Origin: a bacterium
Lineage (GTDB): Bacteria > Hinthialibacterota > Hinthialibacteria > Hinthialibacterales > Hinthialibacteraceae
Direction: 5' to 3'
Length of the DNA: 64,000 nucleotides
Assembly: GCA_016125385.1 (NCBI GenBank)
Contig: WGLV01000041.1
Location: 1-64,000 of the forward strand
The stretch's first letter is position 1. Each line of letters starts with the position of its first letter. This document shows positions 1,638 to 19,364 of the stretch, piece by piece. The translations under genes and the position numbers were made by a program. Under the pieces are notes generated by a model. The model was not told where the DNA came from and did not search any database. It saw only the letters and a list, made by a program, of their open reading frames with translations.

Positions 1638-2117
1638 ATGGCTGAAACGATCACCTTGAACGTCAATGGAACCGATCGCGCCGTCAAGGCGAGCCCCGAC
1701 CGCATGCTTCTCTGGGTATTGCGCGACGAACTCGGCCTGACGGGAAGCAAGTACGGATGCGGCGAAGGGCAGTGCGGCGCCTGCACGGTGCTGGTCGACG
1801 GTTCTCCCCGCCGCTCGTGCATCACCCGCCTCTCCAGCGTGGCGGGCAAGCGCCTCACCACCATCGAAGGACTCGCGCAAAACGGCGAGCTCCACCCCCT
1901 TCAACAGGCTTTTATCGATGAAGACGCCCTGCAATGCGGCTATTGTACGCCGGGCATGATCGTGGCGGGCGCGGGCCTGTTGATGAAAAAACCCGACCCC
2001 ACCGTCGATGAGATTCTCGACTCGATGCAGGGCAACGTCTGCCGTTGCGGAACCTACAACCGCATCGTGAAGGCGATTCAGCGCGCGGCCAAAGCGATGA
2101 AAGAAGCGAGACCATGA
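1638..2117 (+). CDS. (2Fe-2S)-binding small subunit of a xanthine dehydrogenase family molybdenum hydroxylase
   Basis: This 159-residue protein carries both iron-sulfur clusters of a molybdenum hydroxylase. The plant-ferredoxin type cluster is bound by C41, C46, C49 and C61 (motif GCGEGQCGAC). The second, all-alpha domain uses C100, C103, C135 and C137 (QCGYCTPG and VCRCGTY). The length and the absence of a separate FAD subunit match the IorA type of isoquinoline 1-oxidoreductase and related aldehyde oxidases. It passes electrons from the molybdenum site of the large subunit to an acceptor, probably a cytochrome. Its TGA overlaps the ATG of the large subunit (ATGA), so the two are translationally coupled. 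The substrate is not determined. Confidence 0.93.
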   Translation: MAETITLNVNGTDRAVKASPDRMLLWVLRDELGLTGSKYGCGEGQCGACTVLVDGSPRRSCITRLSSVAGKRLTTIEGLAQNGELHPLQQAFIDEDALQCGYCTPGMIVAGAGLLMKKPDPTVDEILDSMQGNVCRCGTYNRIVKAIQRAAKAMKEARP

Positions 2118-4433: not shown

Positions 4434-6704
4434 TCACCGCGTCAGCGTCACAACCTCGCCCGGCTGCATGGGAATAGTAAGGATATTCCGCTCGCCGCCG
4501 TTATCATCCGCGAACGGATCGGCGAGGCGCAGTTCCCCGCCCTTCTCCGACCGCACCGTCACTTTCACCGTCGCGCCGTCCTTTCTCTCCGCGCTGACCA
4601 CAAACGCTCCCTCCGCGCGCAGGCCGCTGAACGACGCGTCCCGCCACGCGGCCGGAATGGCGGGAAACATCTCGACGAAGCCCGCGTGGCTCTGCAACAG
4701 CATCTCCTGAACGCCCATCGCGAAGGCGAAGTTGCCCTCCAGCGTGAAGGGCCGGTAGGTGAATTTCGAATACCCCTTGCCCGACTGATCGCCGTTGACG
4801 TGGAACGAGTTGGGCAGACAGAACGCCTCCGCGAAAATCTTGAGCGAGTGGGTGGCGTTGTCGCCCTCATGGTTGCGCGCGTACAGACAGCCCTGCCAGG
4901 CGAAGGAATACCCCGTCCACCAGTCGGTCCCCAGCCGTTCGAGATCGCGTAGCGAGGCGTCGACGATGCGCTCATCCGCCTCGTTTCGATCGGGATCGAC
5001 CAGCCCCAGCGGATAAATCCCCATCAGGTGCGAGAAATGGCGGTGCGACGCCTTCAGCGGATACCCGGGCGCGACCAGCAGGCGCCCATCGTCGGCCGAC
5101 GTCGCCAGCTCGGGCCACTGGGCCAGTACGCCGCGCCAGCGCGCGGCGTCGTCCGCGCGGCCCAGTTCATCCGCCAGCTCGGCGGCGGCGCCGAACAGCC
5201 AGCGGATCAGGGCGAGGTCGTAGTTGGTGGTTTGGGTGAACCACGCATCGATGCGGTTGTCGTTGATCTCGGGCGACGAGCTGAGGCGAAGTTTCCGTTG
5301 TCCGTTCTCCATCACTGAATGCGATTCGAGAAACGCCGCGCATTCGGACAGCCACGGATAGGCGCGCGTCTTGAGATAATCGCGGTCCATGCTGTAGCGC
5401 CAGTGAAGATAAAAATGCTGCGCCAGCCACGCGCCGGTGGTCGATGAAAGCGAATACTGGCTCCATCCGCCCATCGGGTCGCCGTGAATCGTGGTGACGC
5501 CCGGCGCGTTCAGCCCCCCTGCGCCGTAAAAGCGATGGGTCCAGTCTTCGAGCACGGGTTTAATCGACCATAACCAGTCGAGAAAACCGAGCCCCTCTTC
5601 CAGATGATTGGCCGAATAACAGGGCCAGTAGCTGAGCTGGGTGTTCAGGTCGTGATGAAAGTCGCCTCGCCAGGGCGGGATGCGGCGTTCGTCGGCGGTC
5701 CACACCGCTTGCAGCGAGATGGGCGGCGCGCCTCGCCGCGCGGCGGCGCCGAACTTGTATTGCTCCAGCCGCCACTGTTTTTCAAGTACGCGGTCGGGCA
5801 GGTGAATATCGCTCTGTTTCCAAAATCGGCTCCACCATGCGAGATGGGTCTTGAGGTCTTCATCAAATCCACGCCGCGATGCTTCCCGCACGGAACGCGC
5901 GGCTTCGGCGGCGGGGTCGCCGCCTTCCTCGGTTGAGGCGATCGACCAGACGCCTTCCAGCGAGCCGTCATCCAGCCGGCGCCATTGCGTCACGATGGCG
6001 AATCGGAATCCGCCCCATCCCTGCTGGACGTACTGAATCGAGTCGCCATCCCTCGTTACATCAGGCGCGGGGTAGCCCAGCAGGCGCAGATCGTGACCGC
6101 TCACCGAATTGGCTGTGGTTTCATCGCTTTCGCCTCCAAACGGTGGCGGAACGATTTTGACGGAGGTTTCAGCGGGAACACCCGTCAACCGGAACCAGCC
6201 GACCGGCAGCTCGGCGTGAACGAAGGTCTCAAGCCGCGTTCCGTTTTTCCACGAGACCCGGCAGACCGCATCATCGAGATTCAGTTCCGCCGACGTGACG
6301 CGATCCAGTCCGGAGGCGTCGAACTCCAGCCGCCCGGCTGGGATCTTGGTGGGCGCGGGGTCGCGTTCATAAGGAAGATCGCACAGTTTCTGTACGCTGG
6401 CGAGGTCGCCTTTCGCGATCCGCTCGGCCATCCAGTCAAAGGTGAACTCGGGCCGCTCGAATTCCGGAACGGGGCGGTTATCCCACAGATCGGCTCGATC
6501 GAGCGAAAAACGCAGCACGTCGCCTTCGCGCCACACCAGCGCGCCCAGCATGCCGTTACCCAGCGGCAGGGCTTCATCCCAGCGCGCGGCCAGATCGGGA
6601 AACGCCAGCCGGTGGAGCGATTCGTCTTCGGCATGAATCGCCGACGATGCGGTTAACATCAGAATCAAAGCAACCGAAATGCGAAAAATGGGAACGTGGT
6701 TCAT
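4434..6704 (-). CDS. Secreted glycoside hydrolase, GH95 (alpha-L-fucosidase)-like
   Basis: This 756-residue protein begins with a Sec signal peptide (about residues 1-25, hydrophobic ISVALILMLTASS then HAED). The N-terminal domain starts with the GH95 hallmark PLGNGMLGALVW and continues with FSLDRADLWDNRP, equivalent to the N-terminal beta-sandwich of family 95. A helical (alpha/alpha)6-like catalytic part follows (GGWSQYSLSSTTGAWLAQHF; WWTGYSFAWQGCLYARN), then a C-terminal beta domain. Family members release fucose or galactose from glycans; the substrate here is unknown. The start has GAAGG upstream. It lies 93 bp downstream of the periplasmic-binding-protein genes on the same strand and could be read through from that operon. 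Confidence 0.85.
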   Translation of the reverse strand: MNHVPIFRISVALILMLTASSAIHAEDESLHRLAFPDLAARWDEALPLGNGMLGALVWREGDVLRFSLDRADLWDNRPVPEFERPEFTFDWMAERIAKGDLASVQKLCDLPYERDPAPTKIPAGRLEFDASGLDRVTSAELNLDDAVCRVSWKNGTRLETFVHAELPVGWFRLTGVPAETSVKIVPPPFGGESDETTANSVSGHDLRLLGYPAPDVTRDGDSIQYVQQGWGGFRFAIVTQWRRLDDGSLEGVWSIASTEEGGDPAAEAARSVREASRRGFDEDLKTHLAWWSRFWKQSDIHLPDRVLEKQWRLEQYKFGAAARRGAPPISLQAVWTADERRIPPWRGDFHHDLNTQLSYWPCYSANHLEEGLGFLDWLWSIKPVLEDWTHRFYGAGGLNAPGVTTIHGDPMGGWSQYSLSSTTGAWLAQHFYLHWRYSMDRDYLKTRAYPWLSECAAFLESHSVMENGQRKLRLSSSPEINDNRIDAWFTQTTNYDLALIRWLFGAAAELADELGRADDAARWRGVLAQWPELATSADDGRLLVAPGYPLKASHRHFSHLMGIYPLGLVDPDRNEADERIVDASLRDLERLGTDWWTGYSFAWQGCLYARNHEGDNATHSLKIFAEAFCLPNSFHVNGDQSGKGYSKFTYRPFTLEGNFAFAMGVQEMLLQSHAGFVEMFPAIPAAWRDASFSGLRAEGAFVVSAERKDGATVKVTVRSEKGGELRLADPFADDNGGERNILTIPMQPGEVVTLTR

Positions 6705-6797
6705 GGCGCCTTCTCGATTCCATAAAGTAGTGGAGACGATCATACCATGCGAATCAGCGGCTTGCATGTGAATCGTGCCGTGAACGGTGCGCGGGCT

Positions 6798-7973
6798 TTA
6801 ATCCTTGAATGGGACATTGATCTTGACGACCGGATCCGAGCCGATATTCGAGCCGCCATTGTCCCAGCGGATCGCACCGCTGACGCCGGTAAAGTCATTC
6901 AGCCCCGCGATGCGCTCGCGCAAAACGCTCCGCGTGACGCCCCCGGCGCGCACGCCTTCCACGATCAGCCGCACGGCGTCGTACCCCAGCATGGCGGCCC
7001 GGTTTGGCGCTTCATGAAAGCGTTTCTGATATCGCGCGGCGAAGGCGGCGTTTCCGGATGATTCACATTCAGATAAAGGCGGCCAATCGACGGTGATGGC
7101 GCCTCCCGTGGGATGAAACCATTCCGGCATGGCGCGATCCGCCTTCCAGGGCAACAGCCAGCGGCATTCGGCGCCTTTGCGATACGATTCGCGCAGCAAT
7201 TCATCACGCCGTTCGTCCGGCAGGCATGTCCACACCGCATCCGGCTTGAATTCAAGCACGTCCGCGATGGCCCGTTTGATGGAGGCCGGGTCATCGGTAA
7301 CCACGGCCTCGAACGCAATACTTTTTTGAGTGTGAGCAAGCGCCTTGCGCATCGCTTCGGCGGCGCTCCGCGCGTCATGCCGGGTGGAATACGCCAGCCC
7401 AACCGTTTCGCAGCCATTCAAGCCTTGGATCAGGATTTGAGCGATTCGATCCTCGCCGGGTGGCAGGCGAAAAATCCACGGAACGCGGGTCTGATTGAGG
7501 GTTTCATCGGTGGAGAGCGGCGCGATGACAGGAACGAACGCCTTAAGCGCGATCTGTTCAAGCAGATGCGTCTCAGCCGATCCTGTGGAGCCCACCAGGG
7601 CGAGTACGCCGTCGTCATAGATCAGCCTTACGATCTCGCGCGCCCCGCCGCTCCACGGGTCGTCCGCCCAGCGCCGCATTATGCGAAACGAACGGCACGG
7701 ATTAGCGTCATTCGCCTCGCTGGCGGCGAGGATGGCGCCGCTAATCAACCCGCGCGCCAAAGAGCCGCTCTCAGGCGGCGGCGAAAAAAGCCCGATGCGG
7801 ATTTCATCGGTCGGCGTCCCGAGCGAAGGGCCGGTGAACTCAAGCGGATCATCAAGCATGCGCTTGTACGGCGCCGTCTCATCGCTCCACCCGCGCGGCG
7901 CAATGATAAACGCCGTTACGGCGATAACGGCGAGAAATCCAAGGCGCGCGCGGCGATTACTTGAATACTTCAT
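6798..7973 (-). CDS. Type-I periplasmic ligand-binding protein (Leu/Ile/Val-binding family), second copy
   Basis: This 391-residue protein has a signal anchor/peptide (hydrophobic residues 11-26), then a short segment with PLEFTG that also occurs in its upstream neighbour (PLEYTG). A type-I periplasmic binding fold follows (IRIGLFSPPPESG; ALVGSTGSAETHLLEQIA; VPVIAPLSTDETL). Family members bind amino acids, amides or other small molecules for ABC importers or act as sensors. No permease or ATPase is encoded nearby, so a sensing or carrier role is possible. Its start lies inside the end of the preceding gene (17-bp overlap). It diverges strongly from that copy, with about 30% similarity by eye, and may bind a different ligand. 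Confidence 0.88.
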   Translation of the reverse strand: MKYSSNRRARLGFLAVIAVTAFIIAPRGWSDETAPYKRMLDDPLEFTGPSLGTPTDEIRIGLFSPPPESGSLARGLISGAILAASEANDANPCRSFRIMRRWADDPWSGGAREIVRLIYDDGVLALVGSTGSAETHLLEQIALKAFVPVIAPLSTDETLNQTRVPWIFRLPPGEDRIAQILIQGLNGCETVGLAYSTRHDARSAAEAMRKALAHTQKSIAFEAVVTDDPASIKRAIADVLEFKPDAVWTCLPDERRDELLRESYRKGAECRWLLPWKADRAMPEWFHPTGGAITVDWPPLSECESSGNAAFAARYQKRFHEAPNRAAMLGYDAVRLIVEGVRAGGVTRSVLRERIAGLNDFTGVSGAIRWDNGGSNIGSDPVVKINVPFKD

Positions 7974-9282
7974 CCTGCGTCAGAATGTTGAAACGCCCGT
8001 CTTCAAGCAGCGCCAGCGTCGCCGGGCTTCGGTTGGTATAGATCGCGTCGAATACCTTGTCGCCGGTCACGCCATGCCATGTCTTGACGGCGGCGAGCTG
8101 ATCGCGAATCAGCGCGCGGTTTAACCCGGCGCGCTCGATGGCTTCGATCACCAGCGTCATGCCGTCATAGGCGTGCGCGGCGTACTGATCGGGAGACTCG
8201 CCATATTTTTCCCGATAGGCGTCTTGAAATTGATTCCACTTGGGATCGTCGCGCGTCGGATCGAAGGGGAATCCCGCCGCCACCTTGCCCGCCTTGAGCG
8301 CGTCGCCCGCAAGTTGAATAAACTCGTCGGACACCATCCGGTCGCTGCCGATGAACCACTGATCCATCCCCATGTCGCGCATCTGCCTGAGCACCAGCGC
8401 CGACTCCTGCGCGTCTCCGTAGGTTACGACCACCTCGGGGTTCAGCGCCTTGAGGCGTTCAAGTTGAGGGCGCATGTCGGTCGAACCCAGCGGATACTGC
8501 AACTCTTCGAGAAATGGATACCCCAGCCGCTTCGCCGCGTCGCGGAACTCGTCGATGCTCATTCGGCCATAGCGGTTGCCCGCGCGCAGGGCGGCGACCC
8601 GGGTGAGTTTGAGTTTCTTGAAAACGAAATCCGCCAGCAGATAACACATCTGGCGGTCGTCAGTGATGCAGCGGAACACCCAGGGAATGTTGGTTTCAAT
8701 AAACGTGGGGTCGGTGTCGCCGGTGTTCATAACGGGAACCTCGCATTTGAGCGCGACGCGGATGGCGATATGACTGTTCGCTCCATCGATGGTGCCGAGT
8801 ATGGCCCAGCATTTTTCCTTGTAGACCATATCGACGATCTCGCTGCCCGAGGCCCCCCACAGACCGTTATCGTTATGAACCATCAGTTCGTAGGGCGTCT
8901 TTCCATGATAGCCTCCGCGCCGGTTTGCGTCCGCGATGGCGAGCCGCGCGCCGTTCAGCATCTGCACGCCAAGCGGCTCTTCATGAGAGACGCCGCCGGT
9001 CGCGACGGAGACCGTCGACTCAATGGGACCGATAAAACCGATGCGAACCGTATCGACGTGTTCGGGCTCGGGGATGTGGCGTCCATAGCCCGTATATTCC
9101 AGCGGCGTAAGAAAAAACGTCTTGTAAGGCTGAGTAAAATTGCCGAACGGGACGTATTCCTTCGGCGTGTCGCCATAGGTTCCGCTGGCCGGCGCGGGTT
9201 GCGCTCCATCCTGCGCGAACGCGAATCCAATGGCCAGACCGGCGAACAGCGCCGCGATAAAGAGTGTACGATAGCGCGTCAT
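7957..9282 (-). CDS. Type-I periplasmic ligand-binding protein (Leu/Ile/Val-binding family), first copy
   Basis: This 441-residue protein has a Sec signal peptide (TLFIAALFAGLAIGFAFAQ), an extension of about 55 residues ending in PLEYTG, and a full type-I binding fold starting at VRIGFIGPIES. Typical landmarks include WAILGTIDGANSHIA, ALRAGNRYGRMSIDEF and YAAHAYDGMTLVIEAI. I start it at the ATG at 9282, which has GGGAGG upstream and overlaps the stop of the beta-propeller gene (ATGA). A longer frame upstream is only overlap with that gene. There is no lipobox, so it is probably soluble in the periplasm. Its pairing with beta-propeller and cytochrome genes recalls the PQQ-dependent alcohol dehydrogenase clusters, which include a binding protein and a YVTN propeller. 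Confidence 0.9.
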   Translation of the reverse strand: MTRYRTLFIAALFAGLAIGFAFAQDGAQPAPASGTYGDTPKEYVPFGNFTQPYKTFFLTPLEYTGYGRHIPEPEHVDTVRIGFIGPIESTVSVATGGVSHEEPLGVQMLNGARLAIADANRRGGYHGKTPYELMVHNDNGLWGASGSEIVDMVYKEKCWAILGTIDGANSHIAIRVALKCEVPVMNTGDTDPTFIETNIPWVFRCITDDRQMCYLLADFVFKKLKLTRVAALRAGNRYGRMSIDEFRDAAKRLGYPFLEELQYPLGSTDMRPQLERLKALNPEVVVTYGDAQESALVLRQMRDMGMDQWFIGSDRMVSDEFIQLAGDALKAGKVAAGFPFDPTRDDPKWNQFQDAYREKYGESPDQYAAHAYDGMTLVIEAIERAGLNRALIRDQLAAVKTWHGVTGDKVFDAIYTNRSPATLALLEDGRFNILTQDEVFK

Positions 9283-10451
9283 GGTTGAGCCTCCCGCTCC
9301 CGCCCCGGTAAAGCGAGCGAGGTTTTGCCGGTTTTCAGACCGGGCCAGTACCCGGCGCCGCTTGCGCGGGCGAGGCCGTGGCCGGTCCCGATCCAGAGAT
9401 CGTCCCCGAGAAAGTCGCAGGTGATGATGAAATGATTGGGCAGCGTCAATTCGACCGGTTGGGTCCGAACGGTATCCGCGCCGATGGAGATCTTCGCCGT
9501 CCAGCTCTCGGCTTCGTCGGACTCCCGGTAGTACGAAACCCACGTATCGGTCTCGAAATCAACCAGTGCGGAAAGCCCCTTGTCGGTGCAGTTATAAACC
9601 GTTGTCGCGCTGCGGCCCTTGGCGAAGTTGATAAAGTTGCTGCGCAGCCCGCTGTCGTGGTCCATATAGCCGCGCCAGTGTCTTCCGTCATAACGGCTGA
9701 GACCGAAGTAGGTCGACGCCCACAGAATACGGTCGATGAAAGATACCGAGGTGGTGATGATGTGAATGAGACCGTCATCGCGGTAGAGGTCGATTTCCAT
9801 CTCGCCGTCGGGGTCGTGATGATCGGTCCAGCGGTCGGCGGCGACGTCGTACTCAAGTACGCCCCCGCCCCACACGGCCAGGTATACCTGATTGGTCTCC
9901 TTGCATGAATCGATGTTATAACACCAGATTTCATCCATCGGCGCGTTCTTTTCGGTATAGATGTTCCATTCGCCTGTGACGGTGTTATACCGGCTGGTTC
10001 CCGCCGTGGTCGCGATCCAGACGTCGTCGTTCAGAATGGTGAGGCCATAGACGACGTCGTTGACCAGTCCGCTGTTCAATTGAGTGAAATGATCGAACCG
10101 GCCGCCGCTGAACCGCGCCACGCCGCCGCCGAACAGTCCGAGCCAGACCTCGCCGGTTTTTTCTGAAACGGCGATGCCGCTCACCACGCGCCAGGGCAGT
10201 CCATCATCTTCGGTCCAGCTCGTCCAGCGTCCCTCTTCATACAGCGCGAGTCCCCCCTCGGTCCCGGCCCAGAGGCGGTCGCCATCGGCTTTGAGTGAGA
10301 AGATGTGGTCGTTCGGCAAGCCGTCTTTCACGTAAAACGTTTGCCAGTCGGCATAGACGAACGGCTCGCCTTTCAGTTCAACGCCAATAGCGTTCAACAT
10401 CGGAATCATCGCCAGTACCGAAATCAGCCCGATTATCCATCGCCGAACCAT
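9279..10451 (-). CDS. Exported beta-propeller protein (two-component-regulator propeller repeats)
   Basis: This 390-residue protein starts with a hydrophobic signal peptide (WIIGLISVLAMIPMLNAIG). A repeated unit of about 45-50 residues follows with the pattern DGLPNDHIFSLKADGDRLWAGTEGGLALYEEGRW. This is the reg_prop unit found in the periplasmic sensor of hybrid two-component systems, but no kinase or membrane domain is attached. At least six such blades can be followed. The ATG at 10451 has AAGGAG seven bases upstream; two earlier in-frame ATGs sit on or before that site. It lies 42 nt after the ten-haem cytochrome gene and overlaps the next gene by 4 nt. A docking or sensing scaffold is a reasonable inference. 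Confidence 0.85.
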   Translation of the reverse strand: MVRRWIIGLISVLAMIPMLNAIGVELKGEPFVYADWQTFYVKDGLPNDHIFSLKADGDRLWAGTEGGLALYEEGRWTSWTEDDGLPWRVVSGIAVSEKTGEVWLGLFGGGVARFSGGRFDHFTQLNSGLVNDVVYGLTILNDDVWIATTAGTSRYNTVTGEWNIYTEKNAPMDEIWCYNIDSCKETNQVYLAVWGGGVLEYDVAADRWTDHHDPDGEMEIDLYRDDGLIHIITTSVSFIDRILWASTYFGLSRYDGRHWRGYMDHDSGLRSNFINFAKGRSATTVYNCTDKGLSALVDFETDTWVSYYRESDEAESWTAKISIGADTVRTQPVELTLPNHFIITCDFLGDDLWIGTGHGLARASGAGYWPGLKTGKTSLALPGREREAQP

Positions 10452-10493
10452 CGTCATTCTCCTTCTCATCGCGCCGCTTATTTCATGAGGCTT

Positions 10494-13331
10494 TCAGAGC
10501 GTTTTCAAAAACTCGACCAGATCGTTCAACTGGTCTTTCGTCATGTCGTTGGTCACGCCGTGCGTATCGTACGGGTTAAATCGCGTCCAGATTTCCTCCA
10601 GCGATGGCACCCGCCCGTCGTGCAGATAGGGCGCCGTCTGGTAGCAGTTGTTCAACTGCGGCACGTCAAACTCGCCATGCACGTCGAGCGGCGATTGCGT
10701 CCCCACGTCGGCGACCTCACGGCTGGTATAAAACGGAGCGGGGTGACAGGTGGAGCAGCGATTCGCTTCGGGAATCTCTTCGCCGCGGTTATTCGTTGTA
10801 CGGTAAAAGATCGCTTTACCGCGCCGCTGAGGATCGGTCAGCTGATCACCGGTGCGAAAACGGTTGGGCGGCAGCGGAATCGTGCAGATGTATCGGTCGA
10901 GCGCCTGCGCCTGCTCGGGCGTGAAAGGATCGATCCGCGTGAAAAAGACGGCCAGACGCGGGCCGCACTGCCGCTTCAGCGTCGGGTTGGTACCTTCCCA
11001 TTTGAACGGCGCGGTATCGAGAATGCCGCGCAAAGACCGGTTATCGACGGGTTGCACGCCGATGCCGTCGGGCTCAATGTCATACGTAATCGCGTCGATG
11101 CCGCCGTCGGGGTGACACGAATGGCAGGAGAACTGCCGCCCGAAGGTCACCAGTGCGCTGTGGAAGATGCGTTCGCCCTCGCGCGTTTCGGTAATCTCAC
11201 GCGGCCCGCCCAGATCGATAACACGGACGCGTTGCTGCGTCCGCGCGTCGATGACCGAGATCGCGTCATCAAGGCCGTCCGCTACGTAGATAAAACGCCC
11301 GTCAGGCGAAGCAGCCAGGCCGCGCGGAGAGTTCCCCACCGGGATGCGCGCGATGACGTATTCAGTGCTGACGCCGAAATGGTTCGGCAGCCGTTCTTTC
11401 CGATCCCGGTCGGAAGCCGCGTTTAACACGGCTTTCAATTTCTCCACGTCGATCACCGCGACCTGGTTAACCCCGCCGCCGCTGACGTAGGCGTAACGTC
11501 CATCCGCGCGGAAAACCACGTCCGTCGGATCGGCGAAAAAACGGTCCGGCCCATCGATCAGCAGTTGATCGGTGCGCCCGTCTTTCCAGATGACGCCCAA
11601 TCCATTGGTCATCACCCAGCCTTGCGTAACACGCGTCATCGGGACGAGATTCTTCGTGCGGATCAGCGTACAGAGCGTGATCTCGCCATCCGGCGAAGCA
11701 GCCACGCCTTGAATGAGATTGGCGCCGGAAAACATCCGGCGGTCGCGCACCACGCCGCGCCGGGCGTCGATGACCGAAACCTCCGACAGCGAAGGTTCCC
11801 TGAAGCCGACGAAGTGAGAAAGATTGTTGGTCACGAACAGGCGGACGCCATCCGCCGAAGGCATTATGGCCCACGCGCCGCGCGCGGCGGTGAGGCGCTT
11901 GCTCTCCAGACCGGAGGCAAGATCGATTACCGAAACGTCTTCCGAACCGCAGTTGACCACATAAAGCGTTTTCCCATCCGGCGTGGCGTACAGCCCGTGA
12001 GGTTCATCGCCGGTGGAGAGCGTACGCAACACGTCGAATGTGGCCGCGTCAATCTCCGATACTGAATCCGAACCGCGGTTCGATACATACACCCGCCGTT
12101 CGTCGGCGGAGAGACAAACCCCATGTGGCTGGTTCTGAATCTCGATCTCGCGAAGAACGGCGCCCGATTCCGTATCAACCACCATCAGGCTGTCCGACGC
12201 CTCACACGCCACATACAGCGTCTTTCCATCGTGTGAAACAGCGAGATTCCAAGGCGTTTTGTATTCCGGCTCGGTCGCGTATTCGGCCTTGGGCGGACGA
12301 ATGGCCAGCATGGCGGCGCCGGGATCGAATGCCTTTCCGTGTGCGCGCTCAGACTCATGACAACCGACGCAGGTTTGCTCGCTCACCTCGCGCAGACCGG
12401 CTTTGCGCGACGCCTCCCGATCCAACATGACCTCGCGTGAGGCGTATTCGCTTCCCGGCCCGTGGCAGCTCTCGCACTGCACGCCATCCGCCGCGTCGAA
12501 TGATTCCAGAAAACGCCCGGCGGGCTCGCCGAAACCGGCGGTGTGACATTCCAGACAGACGGGCGCGTCCTGCGGATTGGAGGTGATCCCTCGCTCCAGC
12601 GCGAGTTCGCGGGCGCGCGCCGTTCCCAGCGCGGCGTAGGCGAACGAGTGTTTCCGCGTCCGCCACAGGCTGAATGAACACGCCGCCTCCCCGGCTAGAT
12701 GGCACTCGGAGCAGGCCAGCGCACCAATGTACTTCGGGCCTTCCAGCGGCGCGGTTTTTTCACGCGATCGATGTATGAGAGGGCCGTCCTCGCCGAGATG
12801 TTGAATTTCCTTCAGAGCGTCTTCATACACAAACGGCTTTGAGCCCAACACGGATGTATGCGAGCCTTTATCCTTATGGCAAATCAGACAAAAACGCTCT
12901 CCCGGCATACGCAGTCCGGCGGCGCGGGCGGCGACGGGGTTCTTCATGATCGCTTCATCCATATACTCGCTGCCGGGGCCGTGACAGGCTTCGCACTGCA
13001 TGCCGTCTTCAAAGTGAAATCCCGCGTCGCGCCGCCAGGCTTCCGTGTCCGGCGCGGTGGTGTGACAACCAAGGCAGATGGGACTTTTGAAGGGATCGAC
13101 GTCGACGCCGGAGAGCCGAGCGATCTCGGCGGCTTCGGGCTTGCCCAGCGCGGCGTAGGCGGCGGCGTGTTTCGACAAGCGCCAGCGGTTGAACTGATTG
13201 CGGTAGGTCACATCGTTATGACATTCCCGGCACGCGGCTTCGCCCATATATATGCGATCCACCGCGAACGCGCCCACCGCCGCGGCAAGCAGTACTGCCC
13301 CGATAACAAAACAACCAGCCGCGCGCATCAT
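10494..13331 (-). CDS. Ten-haem c-type cytochrome fused to a YVTN beta-propeller and a di-haem peroxidase-like module
   Basis: This 945-residue exported protein combines three modules. Residues 30-330 hold eight CXXCH motifs (C34, C86, C113, C148, C207, C259, C286, C321) in two similarly spaced sets of four, so the N-terminal tetrahaem unit has been duplicated, as in cytochrome c554-like multihaem proteins. Residues about 345-720 are a YVTN/NHL beta-propeller (TPDGKTLYVVNCGSEDVSVIDL type blades). The C-terminal 230 residues carry two more CXXCH (near 738, and 859-863) in a cytochrome-c-peroxidase/MauG-like context (SCHPDGG; TAPYLHDGRVPSLEE). A signal peptide is present. It overlaps the upstream gene by 4 nt. 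It should move electrons in the periplasm or at the cell surface; the substrate is unknown. Confidence 0.92.
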   Translation of the reverse strand: MMRAAGCFVIGAVLLAAAVGAFAVDRIYMGEAACRECHNDVTYRNQFNRWRLSKHAAAYAALGKPEAAEIARLSGVDVDPFKSPICLGCHTTAPDTEAWRRDAGFHFEDGMQCEACHGPGSEYMDEAIMKNPVAARAAGLRMPGERFCLICHKDKGSHTSVLGSKPFVYEDALKEIQHLGEDGPLIHRSREKTAPLEGPKYIGALACSECHLAGEAACSFSLWRTRKHSFAYAALGTARARELALERGITSNPQDAPVCLECHTAGFGEPAGRFLESFDAADGVQCESCHGPGSEYASREVMLDREASRKAGLREVSEQTCVGCHESERAHGKAFDPGAAMLAIRPPKAEYATEPEYKTPWNLAVSHDGKTLYVACEASDSLMVVDTESGAVLREIEIQNQPHGVCLSADERRVYVSNRGSDSVSEIDAATFDVLRTLSTGDEPHGLYATPDGKTLYVVNCGSEDVSVIDLASGLESKRLTAARGAWAIMPSADGVRLFVTNNLSHFVGFREPSLSEVSVIDARRGVVRDRRMFSGANLIQGVAASPDGEITLCTLIRTKNLVPMTRVTQGWVMTNGLGVIWKDGRTDQLLIDGPDRFFADPTDVVFRADGRYAYVSGGGVNQVAVIDVEKLKAVLNAASDRDRKERLPNHFGVSTEYVIARIPVGNSPRGLAASPDGRFIYVADGLDDAISVIDARTQQRVRVIDLGGPREITETREGERIFHSALVTFGRQFSCHSCHPDGGIDAITYDIEPDGIGVQPVDNRSLRGILDTAPFKWEGTNPTLKRQCGPRLAVFFTRIDPFTPEQAQALDRYICTIPLPPNRFRTGDQLTDPQRRGKAIFYRTTNNRGEEIPEANRCSTCHPAPFYTSREVADVGTQSPLDVHGEFDVPQLNNCYQTAPYLHDGRVPSLEEIWTRFNPYDTHGVTNDMTKDQLNDLVEFLKTL

Positions 13332-14968
13332 GGCCGGGAGGCGCCTCCTTCGCGTGGTTCGGTCACGGTTAACGACTGATTCGCTTTGACGCTCTCAAGA
13401 ATCTGCGTCTCGCCGCCCGGCCAACGGATTTCAATATGCTCCGCTTCACCGGCGTTCCCCAGCCCGAAATGCTGCATCCGGCTGCTTTGCGAAAGATAGC
13501 CGGAACTGCTGGTTACATAGCGCGTCTGCGTAAGCCCACCGGCGGTCAGGCGAATTACCGCACCGTAGGCGTCGCGGTTTCCGGTGGTTCCCACCAGCAG
13601 AATTTTCAGCCACGATCGCGCGGTACCGCCATCGTTTCGCAATAACCGGACGCGATCGTTGAGATTGATGGTCAATAGATCGAGATCGCCGTCGCCGTCA
13701 TAATCGGCCAACGCGGAACCGCGCGTCACGAATTTGCTTTGAAAGGCGTCTCCCAAAGCAGACGATACGTCTTCAAACCGCTCGCCATGACGGTTGAGAA
13801 AGAGCAGGTCTTCTTCGGGATCGAGTTTGTGGCTGTCGCCGTTCGACAGGAATATGTCGATCCACCCATCGCGGTCGAAGTCAAAAAAGTTACCCGACCA
13901 GCTGGTGTATTGTCCGCAGACGGAGGCGACGCCCGCCTTGTTGCTCATTTCTTCGAAATATCCCTGGCCGGTATTTCGGTAGAGGCAACAGTAGGTCATG
14001 TCGGGCACGAGCAGATCGAGAAAACCGTCGAGATTAAAATCGCCGAACTCGGGCCCCATCGCCGCCTGCGCCTCGCCGTTCTGGCCAAAGGCGGTGGCGG
14101 TGGTGAGTGCGATGTTCTCAAACGTCCCATCGCCGTTGTTGTGATAGAGATAGTTTTCCATCGCGTCGTTAGCGACGAAGATATCCACCCAGCCGTCGTT
14201 ATCGATGTCGCTGGTCGCGACGCCCATCGCACGTCCATCGGGGTTGATCAGCCCGGCTTGTTCGGTCACGTCTTCAAAGGTCCCATCCCCGCGATTGTGA
14301 TACAACACGTCCTGCACGCCGGGGTACGACAACGGCCCGGGAAACTTGTCGGGCGCATAATAATATGTGTAATTGGGGTCCCACTTCAGATAGTTGCCGA
14401 CGTATAGATCGAGCCAGCCGTCACGGTCGTAATCGAAGAATGAACAACCGATGCCCCATCGGTCGTCCACGACGCCCGCCGCCTCGGTTACGTTCGTGAA
14501 GGTTCCATCGCCGTTGTTGCGGTAAAGCGCGTTGGGGCCGTAGTTGGTGACGAACAGATCGTCGTCTCCGTCATTGTCATAGTCTCCCGTCACGCAACCC
14601 ATGCCGAATCCCGCATCCCCCACCCCCGCCGCTTCGGTTACGTCCGTGAACGTTCCATCTCCGTTATTGCGGTAGAGCGCGTTATGCAGTTTCCCTTCAT
14701 TGAGCCGCCCCCGAATATTGCTGACGCCCTTCAGATAACACCCATTAACGAGATACACGTCGGGCCAGCCGTCGTTGTCGTAATCGAAAAACGCGCAACC
14801 GGCGCCGGTCGATTCGATGATGTTGTCGAGCGCGTCGTCGCCGATGCTGTGACGAAAAACCAGTCCCGCCTCGGAGGTCACATCGGTGAAATGAGGAAGT
14901 TCATCCCCATATCCCGCCACGGCGGCGACTCCCATGAAGATCGCCATTGATACGAACGACTGCTTCAT
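13328..14968 (-). CDS. CRTAC1 family protein: FG-GAP/VCBS beta-propeller with ASPIC/UnbV C-terminal domain
   Basis: This 546-residue secreted protein has a short signal peptide, then seven or so FG-GAP repeats with calcium-binding DxDxDG loops (FFDYDNDGWPDVYLVNG; GDYDNDGDDDLFVTNYG). Between them sits the motif LYRNNGDGTFTDVTEAAGV, nearly identical in consecutive copies. The C-terminal part (about 455-530) is an ASPIC/UnbV domain (WLKILLVG; DAYGAVIRLT; LGLGNAGEAEHIEIRWPGG type). Such proteins are common in Planctomycetota and Acidobacteriota and are thought to act in binding or adhesion. The ATG at 14968 overlaps the upstream TGA by one base, with GGAAGG upstream; a GTG three bases earlier is an alternative. 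Confidence 0.92.
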   Translation of the reverse strand: MKQSFVSMAIFMGVAAVAGYGDELPHFTDVTSEAGLVFRHSIGDDALDNIIESTGAGCAFFDYDNDGWPDVYLVNGCYLKGVSNIRGRLNEGKLHNALYRNNGDGTFTDVTEAAGVGDAGFGMGCVTGDYDNDGDDDLFVTNYGPNALYRNNGDGTFTNVTEAAGVVDDRWGIGCSFFDYDRDGWLDLYVGNYLKWDPNYTYYYAPDKFPGPLSYPGVQDVLYHNRGDGTFEDVTEQAGLINPDGRAMGVATSDIDNDGWVDIFVANDAMENYLYHNNGDGTFENIALTTATAFGQNGEAQAAMGPEFGDFNLDGFLDLLVPDMTYCCLYRNTGQGYFEEMSNKAGVASVCGQYTSWSGNFFDFDRDGWIDIFLSNGDSHKLDPEEDLLFLNRHGERFEDVSSALGDAFQSKFVTRGSALADYDGDGDLDLLTINLNDRVRLLRNDGGTARSWLKILLVGTTGNRDAYGAVIRLTAGGLTQTRYVTSSSGYLSQSSRMQHFGLGNAGEAEHIEIRWPGGETQILESVKANQSLTVTEPREGGASRP

Positions 14969-16425
14969 CACGGCTTTTCCTTCCCTTCCAGAACGACCCT
15001 GGATGCCGGCGTCAACAATTTGACGGGGGGCTTGGTCACCGCCTGAACCAGACGGTTCGGCGGCGCCAGCTCGGGGTCTTCATGACAACCGATGCATCCG
15101 CGCCGTTCGCCAGGCCTCACCCAAGTCCAGGCGGCCTGTGTCGCGACGGTGTTCCCTTCTGAATCGAGCAACTGAAACGCCAGCGGCGAATTCGCCGGAA
15201 CGAGCAGATGAAACGAGCCGTCTTCTTCCACCGGCGCATCGCCCAATAACCAGGCGGCGCCGGTCTCCGGCGCGGCGGTGAGGACGCGCACCTGTTTGAT
15301 GGAACCGGGCTGCAATCCGCTGACATCGGGGAGCTGGCTCTCATATACGTTCAGGCAATAAATTTCTCCGGCGTCTTTCTCGATATTCACCACGCTCGAA
15401 CGCCCGCTGGGCGCGGCGTGAGCGCGCTGAATCGCCGCGCCGAAACAGTGCCATTCATGCGATGCGAAAACCGAGGACCATGAGGCCTCATCCGCATCCA
15501 TCGTAAGCAGCGCGTAAGGTTCTTCGTCGCCATCTCTACGATGCGAAACCAGCAGGGCGCCCTCATCGATTGCGCATGGATCGAGAAACGTTCCGTCATC
15601 CGACAGCAGGCGTTTCGAGTGCATGGGACGCTGTTGTGAAACGCTGGCGAGCGCGCCGCCGCCAAGCCCGTCGGGCGAATCGCTTTCAATGAAGTACAGC
15701 GTTTCATTAGAAGACGCGGCGGGCTGAACTGCATACCGCGTAAAACCGGCGCCGATCGCGTATGCCATACCGTCTGTGCCGTCGATGTTCACCGCCAGCA
15801 GAGAAAACGCATCCCGCGCTCCGGGAAATGCCGTGCGGCTTGAATAAACCACGCGCCCATTGGGGAGAAGCGCGGGGGTGCAATCGTCGCCCATATTGCT
15901 GGTGATTCGCTGGACGCCGCTGCCATCCAGTCCGCAGGCGAACAGGGCGAGCGCGTTGGCCCGCGCGTCCGGCGCGGCGAAAATCAGGCGTAGGGTGGGG
16001 CTGGCGTCGTTCAGATGAAACAGCGAACCGGCGTATCGCGGCGAAATCGCGTTCTCTACGCCGGTCTGGATGGGGTGTGCTTCCAGATCGCCCAGATTCA
16101 TCCGCCACAGCGACCACGCATCACCGGGCGCCCGCCGCGCGGTGAAAAGCATCTCAGCGCCGTCGAATGAAATCTCCGGATCGAGCGCTGATTCAAAATC
16201 ATCCGTCAGCGTCTGAATATCCCCGTTCACCAGCCGAACGATTCGGCAGCCATCCACATAACGAGCCTGCGGGCTGTAGGGCTCGGTGAGATCGATCGCG
16301 CCGGCTGGCGCCTGAACGAAAATGATGGGGGCGCTCGCCCATGCGGACGCGATCAATCCGAGCCACGCTCCCAACAACGCGAACCGCGCGCCCCACCGTT
16401 GAAAGCATGCGATCGGGCGGTTCAT
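14968..16425 (-). CDS. HzsA-related monohaem protein (hydrazine synthase alpha-subunit-like) with PD40-type repeats
   Basis: This 485-residue exported protein has a signal peptide (FALLGAWLGLIASAWASA), then a WD40-like/PD40 beta-propeller. The C-terminal segment PANSPLAFQLLDSEGNTV... WTWVRPGERRGCIGCHEDP is the signature of the HzsA middle/C-terminal domain and carries one c-type haem site, C444-H448. Real hydrazine synthase alpha subunits are larger, with two haems and partner subunits HzsB/HzsC, which are absent. This is therefore a relative, not evidence of anammox. Its ATG overlaps the stop of the Rid-like gene by one base (TAATG). It probably works in the periplasm with the cytochrome encoded downstream. 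Confidence 0.85.
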   Translation of the reverse strand: MNRPIACFQRWGARFALLGAWLGLIASAWASAPIIFVQAPAGAIDLTEPYSPQARYVDGCRIVRLVNGDIQTLTDDFESALDPEISFDGAEMLFTARRAPGDAWSLWRMNLGDLEAHPIQTGVENAISPRYAGSLFHLNDASPTLRLIFAAPDARANALALFACGLDGSGVQRITSNMGDDCTPALLPNGRVVYSSRTAFPGARDAFSLLAVNIDGTDGMAYAIGAGFTRYAVQPAASSNETLYFIESDSPDGLGGGALASVSQQRPMHSKRLLSDDGTFLDPCAIDEGALLVSHRRDGDEEPYALLTMDADEASWSSVFASHEWHCFGAAIQRAHAAPSGRSSVVNIEKDAGEIYCLNVYESQLPDVSGLQPGSIKQVRVLTAAPETGAAWLLGDAPVEEDGSFHLLVPANSPLAFQLLDSEGNTVATQAAWTWVRPGERRGCIGCHEDPELAPPNRLVQAVTKPPVKLLTPASRVVLEGKEKP

Positions 16426-17558
16426 TACGCTTCTCCCGGCAACACCAGCGCCGCATCCATCTCAAAGAGCAGTTCATCGCGGCATACGTCGGCGATGGTG
16501 ACCACGATCGATCGGAAATCGAGCCCCATGCTGGTGGCGATACGTGAAAACGCGGCAAGATCTTCGGCTCGTTTGAGAAACGCCGTGCCCTGATGAATTT
16601 GCGACAGCGCGGCGTGCTCGGTTTCGAGCAATACCTGAATGTTCAACAGCGTTCGGCGCGCCTGCGCTTCAAAATCGCCTTCATGCACGCTCTCGCCGTG
16701 CTCGTCAATCGACGCCGCGCCCGAAACGAAAATCGAGCGGCTTTCCGGCGAGCGGATCGAAATCGCCCGTGAAAACGCCGACCCGTATTCCGTCGCTTCG
16801 TTCTGCATGGGGTTAACCATACGCTTGACCTCCAGCGGCCGCCCCGGAATCTTGCGGATGGCGAGAAGGTCGAGCGTACAGCAATGTCCTTTGGGGTTAC
16901 GGCCCCAAATTCCCGTGCTGGCGGGAATCTCCGCCAGCGCCTTGCCGTTCATGATCCCCCATTGGGTAAAGAGCGCGTTTCGCGCCCGGTTGAAATCGGA
17001 ATACCAGTCCAGAATGTTTTCAAGATAAAACCAGGTGCGCTTGACGTCGGAAAACTCCCATCCTTCGTCACGCAGAATCTCATCCGCCAGCGCCATCGTG
17101 TCGCGCGCCGTTTGGCCTCGTCCCCTCGGCGCGACCGGCAACCCGGCGCCCGCGTCGGAAAGGAACAGATATTCGGCGTCCCGTCCTGTTATCCTCCGCC
17201 CCGCGCAACGCCCCGCGTGACGAACCGCTTGATCGAGCGAGCAGTTCAATCGCGGCGCCGCGATCAGATGAACGCCGGCGATCCCTTGCCCCTGCGCGGG
17301 AGCGCCTTCGATCCAGGTGGGCGACGGCGAGACCCGGCTCAGTTCGCCATACGCGGAGGCGCGCATTTCAAGCGCTTCCAGCGCGGTATCCGCCGAGCCG
17401 AAAATCCGCTCCTGCAACAAAACCAGATTACGCGCCCGCATAAACGCGGCGATATCATTAAACAACGCCCGGGCGCTTTCTTCCCTTGAAATGGATTTGG
17501 AATCCGGAACAGCGGTGATCAGAACCAGATCGAAGGATGAGTAGGATGCAAAAATCAT
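16425..17558 (-). CDS. Rid (YjgF/YER057c/UK114) superfamily protein, possibly chorismatase (FkbO/Hyg5)-like
   Basis: This 377-residue cytoplasmic protein opens the seven-gene operon. The C-terminal half resembles a Rid domain (SRSIFVSGAASIDEHGESVHEGDFEAQARRTLLNIQVLLE...). The N-terminal half is a weaker second Rid-like fold with FSDVKRTWFYLENILDWYSDFNRARNALFTQWG at the centre. Total length and the two-part organisation resemble the FkbO/Hyg5 chorismatases, which are Rid-fold enzymes that hydrolyse chorismate; simple RidA deaminases are about 130 residues. I cannot confirm the chorismate site. There is no signal peptide, which is odd because every other protein of the operon is exported. GGAG lies about 10 nt before the ATG. 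Confidence 0.78.
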   Translation of the reverse strand: MIFASYSSFDLVLITAVPDSKSISREESARALFNDIAAFMRARNLVLLQERIFGSADTALEALEMRASAYGELSRVSPSPTWIEGAPAQGQGIAGVHLIAAPRLNCSLDQAVRHAGRCAGRRITGRDAEYLFLSDAGAGLPVAPRGRGQTARDTMALADEILRDEGWEFSDVKRTWFYLENILDWYSDFNRARNALFTQWGIMNGKALAEIPASTGIWGRNPKGHCCTLDLLAIRKIPGRPLEVKRMVNPMQNEATEYGSAFSRAISIRSPESRSIFVSGAASIDEHGESVHEGDFEAQARRTLLNIQVLLETEHAALSQIHQGTAFLKRAEDLAAFSRIATSMGLDFRSIVVTIADVCRDELLFEMDAALVLPGEA

Positions 17559-17897: not shown

Positions 17898-18794
17898 TTA
17901 ATTTTGAGGGATTTCTACCGTGGCTCCCGGCTCGGCTGAAGCGGATTCAACCGCCGCCGCCGTTTCAGGGTCTTCCAGATCAGGGATATGGGTGGATGGA
18001 CTTTGCGTTGAGGCGGATGGAGTACGTTGGTCATCGGGGAAAGCCGATTCCTTTTCAAAATCTGGACTGAAAATTGAATCGACAAACCCAGCGCCATTCT
18101 GACTCTGCAACTGCGCGAACGATACGCCGATTAGAATAAAAATCAGAAAAATCACCAGACGTCCCAGGTTCGTCTTGAGAAAAAACGTCAAAAGCATCCG
18201 GTATGTTCGAATAAATATCCAATCCGGCCGATGAGCGGATGACGACGTATCGAGCTTGGCCGCGCTGGGTGGATGATTCGTTATATGCCCTACCCCCTCT
18301 CCGCTCGGGTGGTAGGATGATGCCTGCCCTCCCTTTTTCGATCGGAAATGCGACAAAATGGCCTTCACGTCTTCCGACAGCGATTCGTCTTTTTCAATAC
18401 GCTCCAGAATGCGGTGATACACCTCTTCCAGCAGGGGGATCGCTTTGGCGTCGTTCAAACCGCGCGCGATATACAGCCGCTGAAACTGAAAACAGCGCTG
18501 ACGTTCCGCCGCGTTCCGGTCGTGCAGTTTTTTCAGACGCAACCCGGTTTCTTCATGCAGTTCTCCGCTGGCATTTTCCTGAATTTTATCGAGAATCGAA
18601 TTGTACATGTTCATGTACTCGATAAACTGATTGATAAATGCAATGACTTCATCGGGTTTATCGAGCAATGCCGACTGTGTTTTGATGTTGGATATAGAAC
18701 TCTCCAGCGCCGCCCGGGTTTGATCGTTCCACTCGCGGCGCTGGCTTGACCGGCGCTGAAAACCTTCAAGCCAATCAGGAGAAAGAGGATTCAT
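17898..18794 (-). CDS. Unrecognised single-pass membrane protein
   Basis: This 298-residue protein matches no family I know. Residues 1-150 are predicted helical and charged (WNDQTRAALESSISNIKT; LHDRNAAERQRCFQFQRLY). A linker rich in S/H/P follows, then one membrane segment at about 210-229 (LGRLVIFLIFILIGVSFAQL), and a low-complexity tail rich in P, S, E and A. The helical part is thus probably cytoplasmic and the tail outside. The ATG at 18794 has AAAGGA eight bases upstream; an ATG at 18803 overlaps that site. It is transcribed away from the receiver-like gene at 18939 and may share its control region. Confidence 0.7.
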   Translation of the reverse strand: MNPLSPDWLEGFQRRSSQRREWNDQTRAALESSISNIKTQSALLDKPDEVIAFINQFIEYMNMYNSILDKIQENASGELHEETGLRLKKLHDRNAAERQRCFQFQRLYIARGLNDAKAIPLLEEVYHRILERIEKDESLSEDVKAILSHFRSKKGGQASSYHPSGEGVGHITNHPPSAAKLDTSSSAHRPDWIFIRTYRMLLTFFLKTNLGRLVIFLIFILIGVSFAQLQSQNGAGFVDSIFSPDFEKESAFPDDQRTPSASTQSPSTHIPDLEDPETAAAVESASAEPGATVEIPQN

Positions 18795-18938
18795 GTCAGC
18801 CATCCTTTGCTTTTCATGGCGGCCGGTCGTTCGCTTTCCGGCGTTCCAGCCTTCAGAACCGGTCGCCCGCATGAACTTGTGATATCGTTATTATACAGGA
18901 TTTTCACGGAATCACGGCGCCTGAGAAAGGAGACCATC

Positions 18939-19364
18939 ATGTCAGCCAACGGCGTTCTCTCCAGATACAAAATTTTCGTCTACACAAATGATGCCGCGCT
19001 GTTCGGCCGGATACGAAACGCGCTCGATCCCCGAGGAGCCGTATTATTTTACAGCAATCAGCCCGCGGAAGCCATCGCAAAAATGCTGTCGGTCAATCCC
19101 GATCTGCTGATTGTCGATGAAGACGCGCCTCTATTTCATAATTCGACGGTCCTCTCGGTGGTACGAAAACAAAAACCTCGCCTGCGGGTCATGTTGGTGA
19201 CGCGCCACGAATCGCCGTTGCGCAGCATCGACGTCAGCTGTCAGGGTGTTTCATTCAGCCTGGCGCATGATTCGAATGAAGAGTCGATATACAACGGCGT
19301 CAAACATAGCCTGTCCATTTCCAGCGTCCCGAGAGTTGAAACCTCCTCGGCGGCAAGCGCGTAA
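18939..19364 (+). CDS. Degenerate response-regulator receiver domain protein
   Basis: This 141-residue stand-alone domain has the alternating beta/alpha pattern of a CheY-type receiver. Strand 1 is KIFVYTND, strand 3 is PDLLIVD with the aspartate D60 at the phosphorylation position, and strand 4 is RLRVMLVT with T88 at the switch position. The acidic pair after strand 1 is reduced to one residue, and the invariant lysine after strand 5 is replaced (FSLAHDSN). It may therefore signal without normal phosphorylation. AAGGAG lies 8 nt before the ATG. No kinase is adjacent; the divergent membrane protein gene is the nearest candidate partner. Confidence 0.68.
   Translation: MSANGVLSRYKIFVYTNDAALFGRIRNALDPRGAVLFYSNQPAEAIAKMLSVNPDLLIVDEDAPLFHNSTVLSVVRKQKPRLRVMLVTRHESPLRSIDVSCQGVSFSLAHDSNEESIYNGVKHSLSISSVPRVETSSAASA

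Follow-up and report, generated by a model that had tools for sequence, protein, structure and literature searches.

The window analysed here, a stretch of 64,000 nucleotides from a bacterium of the Hinthialibacteraceae (contig WGLV01000041.1), carries a seven-gene minus-strand operon which is real, conserved and so far uncharacterised, and which is related to hydrazine synthase (HZS). From its 5' end, the operon encodes a Rid/chorismatase-like protein (P0001), an HZS-alpha-like protein (P0002, HzsA), a CRTAC1-type propeller protein (P0003, UnbV), a ten-haem fusion protein (P0004, HzsBC), a Reg_prop-type propeller protein (P0005) and two type-I periplasmic binding proteins (P0006, SBP1; P0007, SBP2). 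Hydrazine synthase is the key enzyme of anammox and, to our knowledge, was long believed to have no relatives. At roughly even odds (about 50%), the operon specifies an exported multi-haem redox complex which is built on an HZS-homologous core and works in the way proposed below.

The relation of P0002 to HZS alpha was apparent from profile, sequence and fold comparisons. A Pfam profile search matched the hydrazine synthase alpha middle domain (PF18582) at 7e-22, and among all PDB sequences HZS alpha of Kuenenia (5c2v_A) was the sole significant match (2.7e-16). The same chain was the best fold match of the predicted structure (pLDDT 89; E 2.8e-28, TM 0.75), with TolB propellers next at 1e-13. 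P0002 displays the architecture of alpha, a propeller followed by an HZS_alpha domain with a CXXCH haem motif, its single CXXCH being CIGCH at residue 444. The surrounding motif GCxGCHEDxE was found in all 67 alpha homologues covering the site. The score of P0002 is below the curated NCBIfam cut-off (NF052339, 88.5 versus 800). The second alpha haem (alpha-II) is absent from P0002. In family relatives its motif (CXXCH or CX4CH, in 56 of 68 alpha homologues) is located in a C-terminal domain of about 110–170 residues, which the window protein lacks (gene end at 14968-15030), as it stops upstream of that point; the UnbV gene begins right at this stop.

P0004 is an octahaem-beta-gamma fusion with ten CXXCH motifs, since c554 domains and matches to HZS beta and HZS gamma are found in one chain. 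The motifs lie at residues 34, 86, 113, 148, 207, 259, 286, 321, 736 and 859. Those of the c554 domains are conserved in about 80 of 85 P0004 homologues. The profiles NF052342 (hydrazine_BC), NF052340 and NF052341 matched at 3e-55, 4e-49 and 5e-19, respectively, with a score below the curated cut-off for NF052342 (187.6 versus 1250). The seven-bladed propeller characteristic of HZS beta is present and aligned end to end with 5c2v_B (3e-39; 6e-51 with a family profile), while the C-terminal di-haem domain matched HZS gamma (5c2v_C) at 6e-15. In HZS, Cys165 of gamma forms a third bond to haem gamma-I (PMC12758564 and PMC12607021). The equivalent Cys789 of P0004 is kept in 85 of 85 homologues, and the third thioether is predicted from it. 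A preliminary description of the window had named HzsA only; that relation holds, and P0004 adds matches to HZS beta and gamma.

Further evidence came from three loci of other bacteria (L178-L180, described below), in which the beta-gamma protein carries its own two haems only and is followed by a separate four-CXXCH gene matching part of the profile. The c554 module being separate there and fused in P0004 implies that the c554 haems would serve the HZS-like enzyme.

The layout of the operon is compact (Table 1), and all seven open reading frames (ORFs) are present as previously described, overlapping or nearly touching. P0001 and the HzsA gene overlap by 1 bp at 16425. The HzsA and UnbV genes overlap by 4 bp with the GTG start at 14971 or by 1 bp with the ATG start at 14968, and UnbV and HzsBC by 4 bp. 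Between HzsBC and Reg_prop there is a gap of 24 nt from the first ATG (10469) or 42 nt from the third (10451). Overlaps of 4 bp and 17 bp follow between Reg_prop and SBP1 and between SBP1 and SBP2. The junction values of the preliminary description fit its choice of starts (ATG 14968 and third ATG 10451). Terminator and promoter scans gave nothing above chance level.

Table 1. Genes of the operon and domains of its HZS-like proteins in the window
Feature	Position	Strand	Remarks
P0001, Rid/chorismatase-like, 377 aa	16425..17558	(-)	three predicted YjgF-like units; no signal peptide seen
P0002, HZS-alpha-like, 485 aa	14968..16425	(-)	N-terminal propeller followed by a middle domain that carries one c-haem
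HZS_alpha middle domain of P0002, residues 393-449	15079..15249	(-)	PF18582; haem alpha-I motif GCIGCHEDPE
P0003, predicted exported FG-GAP/UnbV_ASPIC (CRTAC1-type) propeller protein	13328..14971	(-)	PF13517 1e-56; PF07593 9e-21
P0004, ten-haem fusion c554-c554-HzsB-HzsC, 945 aa	10494..13331	(-)	PF13435, NF052342, NF052340, NF052341
Two tetrahaem cytochrome c554 domains of P0004, residues 33-330	12342..13235	(-)	PF13435, two stretches; eight CXXCH
HZS-beta-like seven-bladed propeller of P0004, residues 356-696	11244..12266	(-)	NF052340; 5c2v_B full length
HZS-gamma/MauG-like di-haem domain of P0004, residues 714-945	10497..11192	(-)	CXXCH 736, 859; Trp778; Cys789
P0005, predicted exported Reg_prop-type propeller	9279..10469	(-)	PF07494; PDB 4a2l 7e-21
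P0006, SBP1, type-I periplasmic binding protein 1	7957..9282	(-)	PF13458 4e-46; conserved EYxGxGR extension
P0007, SBP2, type-I periplasmic binding protein 2	6798..7973	(-)	PF13458 6e-22; much more divergent than SBP1

The operon is conserved more than chance would allow, since both the genes and their order persist from genus to genus and from phylum to phylum. Within the family, five other genera have all seven genes in one order (in G003, SBP2 is on another contig). Named genomes were then scanned for relatives of P0004 by means of P0004 motifs, which gave 136 matches, from which 80 loci were kept. Their genomes are labelled as Planctomycetota, Acidobacteriota, Verrucomicrobiota, Candidatus Omnitrophota, Aminicenantes, Gemmatimonadales and Deltaproteobacteria; those nearest to the window bear the label Candidatus Omnitrophota, which may correspond to Hinthialibacterota in newer schemes. 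A set of six genes (alpha, FG-GAP/CRTAC1, c554-beta-gamma, Reg_prop, SBP1 and SBP2) recurs across these phyla, largely in one order. Among the cultured carriers is Aquisphaera insulae (L097), and PMC12758564 names Thermogutta terrifontis and Paludibaculum fermentans as well. Among the loci with sufficient contig, HzsA was found in 49/49, UnbV in 57/60, Reg_prop in 66/67, SBP1 in 49/53 and SBP2 in 40/46. Of 39 complete loci, 32 keep the strict six-gene order; among the seven that deviate, L084 and L103 seem to do so only because ORFs were delimited from stop to stop. No other coding family occurs at more than a few of the 80 loci, except Rid-family and extra FG-GAP genes in some of them. The test proposed in the preliminary description, at least four of the seven genes together in distant genomes, was thereby passed. 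Since the same gene set recurs in many unrelated bacteria, the operon is regarded as a real redox machine.

In the tree of P0004 homologues, grouping by phylum required 8 changes, compared to a mean of 30 for shuffled labels. As this is far better than shuffled labels, the gene set appears to be mostly inherited, with few possible transfers. The window is placed, with good support, among Omnitrophota, Aminicenantes, Gemmatimonadales and one Acidobacterium. The core proteins have correlated pairwise distances (HzsA-HzsBC r 0.88, UnbV-HzsBC 0.84, HzsBC-SBP1 0.81), although shared ancestry alone raises such values. Because the 80 loci had been selected by P0004 motifs, a separate search was done with SBP1 alone over 386 genomes, mostly one per family. 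Ten of the 386 genomes were positive, and all ten carry HzsA-like and HzsBC-like genes on the same contig. Four positives lie outside the family (L178-L181): Reg_prop and SBP2 are present in all four, and UnbV in three, where it precedes alpha. The L180 contig breaks off inside the HzsA gene; hence UnbV was not seen. In L181, a Rid-family gene stands between Reg_prop and SBP1. The gene set is therefore retained even where the order shifts.

Two side observations concern copy number. A second, different pair of an alpha-like gene (ORFs of 796-1072 aa) and a beta-gamma-like gene (625-649 aa) is located elsewhere in four genomes (L182, L183, L184 and L185 in G005, G001, G004 and G003, respectively), with no UnbV, Reg_prop or binding protein nearby; at E 1e-40, the window's genome gave no second beta-gamma match. 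In G005, the operon appears twice with identical scores (contigs C124 and C153), probably an assembly duplicate.

HZS homologues in non-anammox bacteria were described in December 2025 by Hagglund et al. (2025; PMC12758564). Their clade I combines alpha, CRTAC1 and a beta-gamma protein with eight extra N-terminal haems, with two ABC binding proteins downstream. By gene order, the operon of the window fits this clade (alpha - CRTAC1 - c554x2-beta-gamma, followed by the two binding proteins), and it shares with it the eight extra haems and the residue pattern (Cys165 kept, Trp for His144, Tyr591 absent). The Reg_prop propeller and the Rid/chorismatase gene are not named in the available part of that paper, where few RefSeq genomes were examined, whereas the set is followed here through about 80 loci and at least six phyla by label. 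The window's alpha differs by its missing C-terminal haem domain. The core, CRTAC1 and the two binding proteins are thus already in print; the spread, Reg_prop, the Rid partners and the fused or separate state of c554 are added here.

Compared to HZS of Kuenenia (5c2v), the operon shares the alpha propeller with the HZS_alpha CXXCH, the beta seven-bladed propeller and the gamma di-haem domain with the third cysteine. It differs by its gene arrangement, with alpha upstream of beta-gamma, by the octahaem c554 fusion and four added accessory proteins, and by several residues which weigh against the proposed working. The alpha-I tyrosine (Tyr591), the proximal haem ligand in HZS, is replaced by CHEDxE, and in none of 67 alpha homologues do the six residues that follow the CXXCH include a Tyr. 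The alpha zinc cysteine (Cys303) is missing, its site lying in an insertion relative to P0002; according to PMC12758564, it is also absent from Scalindua. The equivalent of gamma His144 is Trp778 in 84/84, as in MauG and cytochrome c peroxidases, a count which is partly forced because the search motif FKWEGTN includes this Trp; Trp is also found at this position in the independently found L178-L181. No acidic residue corresponds to gamma Asp168, which lies 4.1 A from the iron and has been proposed to donate the proton in nitric oxide (NO) reduction (PMC12607021); CG[PA]RLA stands in place of CGRD (the alignment there is uncertain by one residue). Arg792 near this site is invariant in 85/85. 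The Cys165 position is Glu in L178-L180, from which it follows that the crosslink is not essential group-wide. NrfA is patchy among carriers of the operon (see below), and no expression or biochemical data for the operon were found in the open-access literature, including the available part of a proteomic study of Syntrophobacter fumaroxidans.

A genuine hydrazine synthase, and with it anammox outside the Brocadiales, is very improbable. The alpha plus fused beta-gamma architecture and the retained Cys165 are what such an enzyme should show, and two related Phycisphaerae metagenome-assembled genomes, OFTM5 and OFTM285, have been proposed as possible anammox bacteria (PMC10732223). Against this stand the loss of the alpha-I tyrosine, the zinc cysteine and Asp168 together, and the failure to find an HAO/HDH-type (hydrazine dehydrogenase) protein in the window's genome, where the sole PF13447 match is P0004 itself, below cut-off. 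On these grounds true HZS was rejected as a candidate, and the operon probably does not make hydrazine, as judged from its residues; the authors of PMC12758564 likewise considered clade I not to be hydrazine synthases. The loci of OFTM5 (L113) and OFTM285 (L117) group apart from the main set in the tree, have no UnbV or binding proteins nearby and encode an HZS-like alpha with the same CHEDxE motif and no alpha-I tyrosine, which argues against the Phycisphaerae proposal as well.

The same residues bear on an oxidative enzyme, in which the gamma-like domain would act as in MauG or cytochrome c peroxidase: peroxide or a high-valent haem would oxidise a partner protein or a small substrate, for example an amine to an imine then hydrolysed by Rid, and c554 would carry the electrons away. 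This role is kept in play because Asp168 is lost and a peroxidase-like Trp is present, at the position of the catalytically important Trp of MauG and cytochrome c peroxidase (PMC12758564), with the invariant Arg beside the gamma-I site. It would also suit the recurrence of Rid-family genes beside the operon, as members of the Rid family deaminate imines and can accelerate an amino-acid dehydrogenase reaction (PMC5619798, cited from the part available). The di-haem fold is common to these enzymes and P0004. In contrast to them, P0004 has the third haem-linking Cys, called unique to HZS in PMC12758564 and kept throughout the main group, as well as a beta propeller fusion and an alpha-like partner in every assessable locus. 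The MauG and CCP_MauG matches are far weaker than the HZS gamma match. Taken together, the oxidative role is considered unlikely.

For the reductive complex, the following working is proposed. P0002 would be the alpha-like subunit and P0004 the beta-gamma fusion with its own octahaem c554 electron wire. Electrons would leave the c554 haems for gamma-II, the outer haem of gamma, and reach the inner haem, gamma-I, by way of Trp778; there they would reduce a small nitrogen-oxide substrate (nitrite, NO or hydroxylamine). The product may cross the beta propeller to the alpha-I haem, and could meet there a second small organic or amine ligand, perhaps one which SBP1 and SBP2 deliver or sense. Structural or assembly roles would fall to the CRTAC1 and Reg_prop propellers, and the Rid/chorismatase-like enzyme would act on a linked metabolite in the cytoplasm. 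Reductive nitrogen-oxide chemistry is favoured because it is that of the nearest characterised relative and because the third-Cys haem is retained; on its own, this reaction is a tentative assignment. A further reading, in which this widespread complex would couple a reduced nitrogen oxide with an organic amine captured by its own binding proteins, a periplasmic N-N (or N-oxide-to-amine) chemistry related to HZS and perhaps ancestral to it, is a doubtful extension with little probability.

In favour of the proposed working, the genome of the window contains a full-length NrfA match (5e-133, G000:C51:156670-157872) and a PF00115 protein of 795 aa, the size of a quinol NO reductase (qNOR; G000:C70; L154:1171-3558), which is read as a putative qNOR and received no name in the NCBIfam search. 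NrfA is strong in this genome (G000) and in G001, G003 and G294, and absent or marginal in the other six tested. As several operon-carrying genomes lack it, the operon is not tied to nitrite reduction, and an obligate link to nitrite ammonification was ruled out.

The accessory proteins were considered with regard to localisation and ligands. Sec-type hydrophobic N-terminal segments are predicted in six of the seven proteins, the Rid-like one being without, in agreement with the preliminary description; we infer export and assembly into a complex. The SBP1 extension described earlier as PLEYTG-like was recovered, with Y63, G65, G67 and R68 invariant or nearly so in the orthologues; many SBP2 proteins have a comparable EY/EFxG motif. 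Positions conserved at 90% or more number 151 in SBP1 (63 sequences) and 24 in SBP2 (64 sequences). In an alignment to 4gnr, the sites which we take to be Ser79 and Thr102 of LivJ correspond to Asp166 and Asp191 of SBP1, a hint that its ligand may not be an alpha-amino acid, which was not used as evidence. With regard to an ABC importer, neither permease nor ATPase is encoded in the operon, as noted before, and no recurrent family of either kind stood out near the 80 loci.

The preliminary description had seen in the operon a periplasmic redox or sensing system. That the genes form a coupled, exported redox set has strong support, while sensing is supported by nothing but the lack of transporters. 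A surface or periplasmic scaffold for sensing or extracellular electron transfer, where binding proteins and propellers would report or route electrons without own catalysis, would explain the two binding proteins without permease or ATPase, the similarity of P0005 to the propeller part of a hybrid sensor kinase (PDB 4a2l) and the ten haems in one chain. It is quite unlikely, since no kinase or regulator recurs among the neighbours of the 80 loci, the catalytic-type haem pockets are strictly conserved, and the HZS homology points to an enzyme rather than a conduit. The set of a binding protein and a YVTN propeller associated with PQQ alcohol dehydrogenases had also been suggested as an analogue. 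Both elements occur together in the operon, but the propeller is below the TIGR03866 cut-off (122 versus 287) and matches HZS beta along its full length, the binding proteins are of the Peripla_BP_6 type, and the operon has no PQQ dehydrogenase. The analogue was thus wrong, and a PQQ-dehydrogenase association was ruled out.

P0001 matched PF01042 (1.6e-12) and TIGR04444 (1e-15; 57.9 bits versus a cut-off of 325). Its predicted fold is closest to chorismatase Hyg5/FkbO (E 2e-20, TM 0.65), and the alignment displays equivalents of Hyg5 Glu334, Cys327, Gly173 and Gly240. Together with the fold, these are the markers of CH-II chorismatases (from PMC7170507, converted here to Hyg5 numbering). Unlike Hyg5/FkbO, P0001 scores under the cut-off and stands in an unrelated operon context; Hyg5 is a CH-II enzyme that makes 3-hydroxybenzoate from chorismate. 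About 25 of the 80 loci have an adjoining Rid-family gene, beside alpha or just after SBP2, and in the direction of the cluster in all but two. A long Rid-family protein with a chorismatase-like predicted fold and the Hyg5 marker residues is found in the window's group, and a single Rid-type domain in many other loci.

Around the operon, a GH95-type glycosidase gene (4434-6767, same strand) lies 30 bp downstream of SBP2, outside the conserved set; it is possibly co-transcribed with the operon. Two genes upstream (17898-18872 and 18807-19364) have no Pfam matches. G001 has lookalikes of both, recognised by eye, upstream of its operon (L031:3123-3983 and 2445-2861), suggesting that synteny may reach beyond the seven genes there. 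On the plus strand, at 1638-4255, a Fer2/Fer2_2 2Fe-2S subunit gene overlaps one for a MoCoBD molybdopterin-binding large subunit, of xanthine-dehydrogenase type.

HZS-like genes in metagenomes should not be read as anammox. With a complete and strictly conserved operon in at least six phyla, cultured Planctomycetota included, the origin of HZS and the chemistry of this haem family can be tested without recourse to slow anammox cultures.

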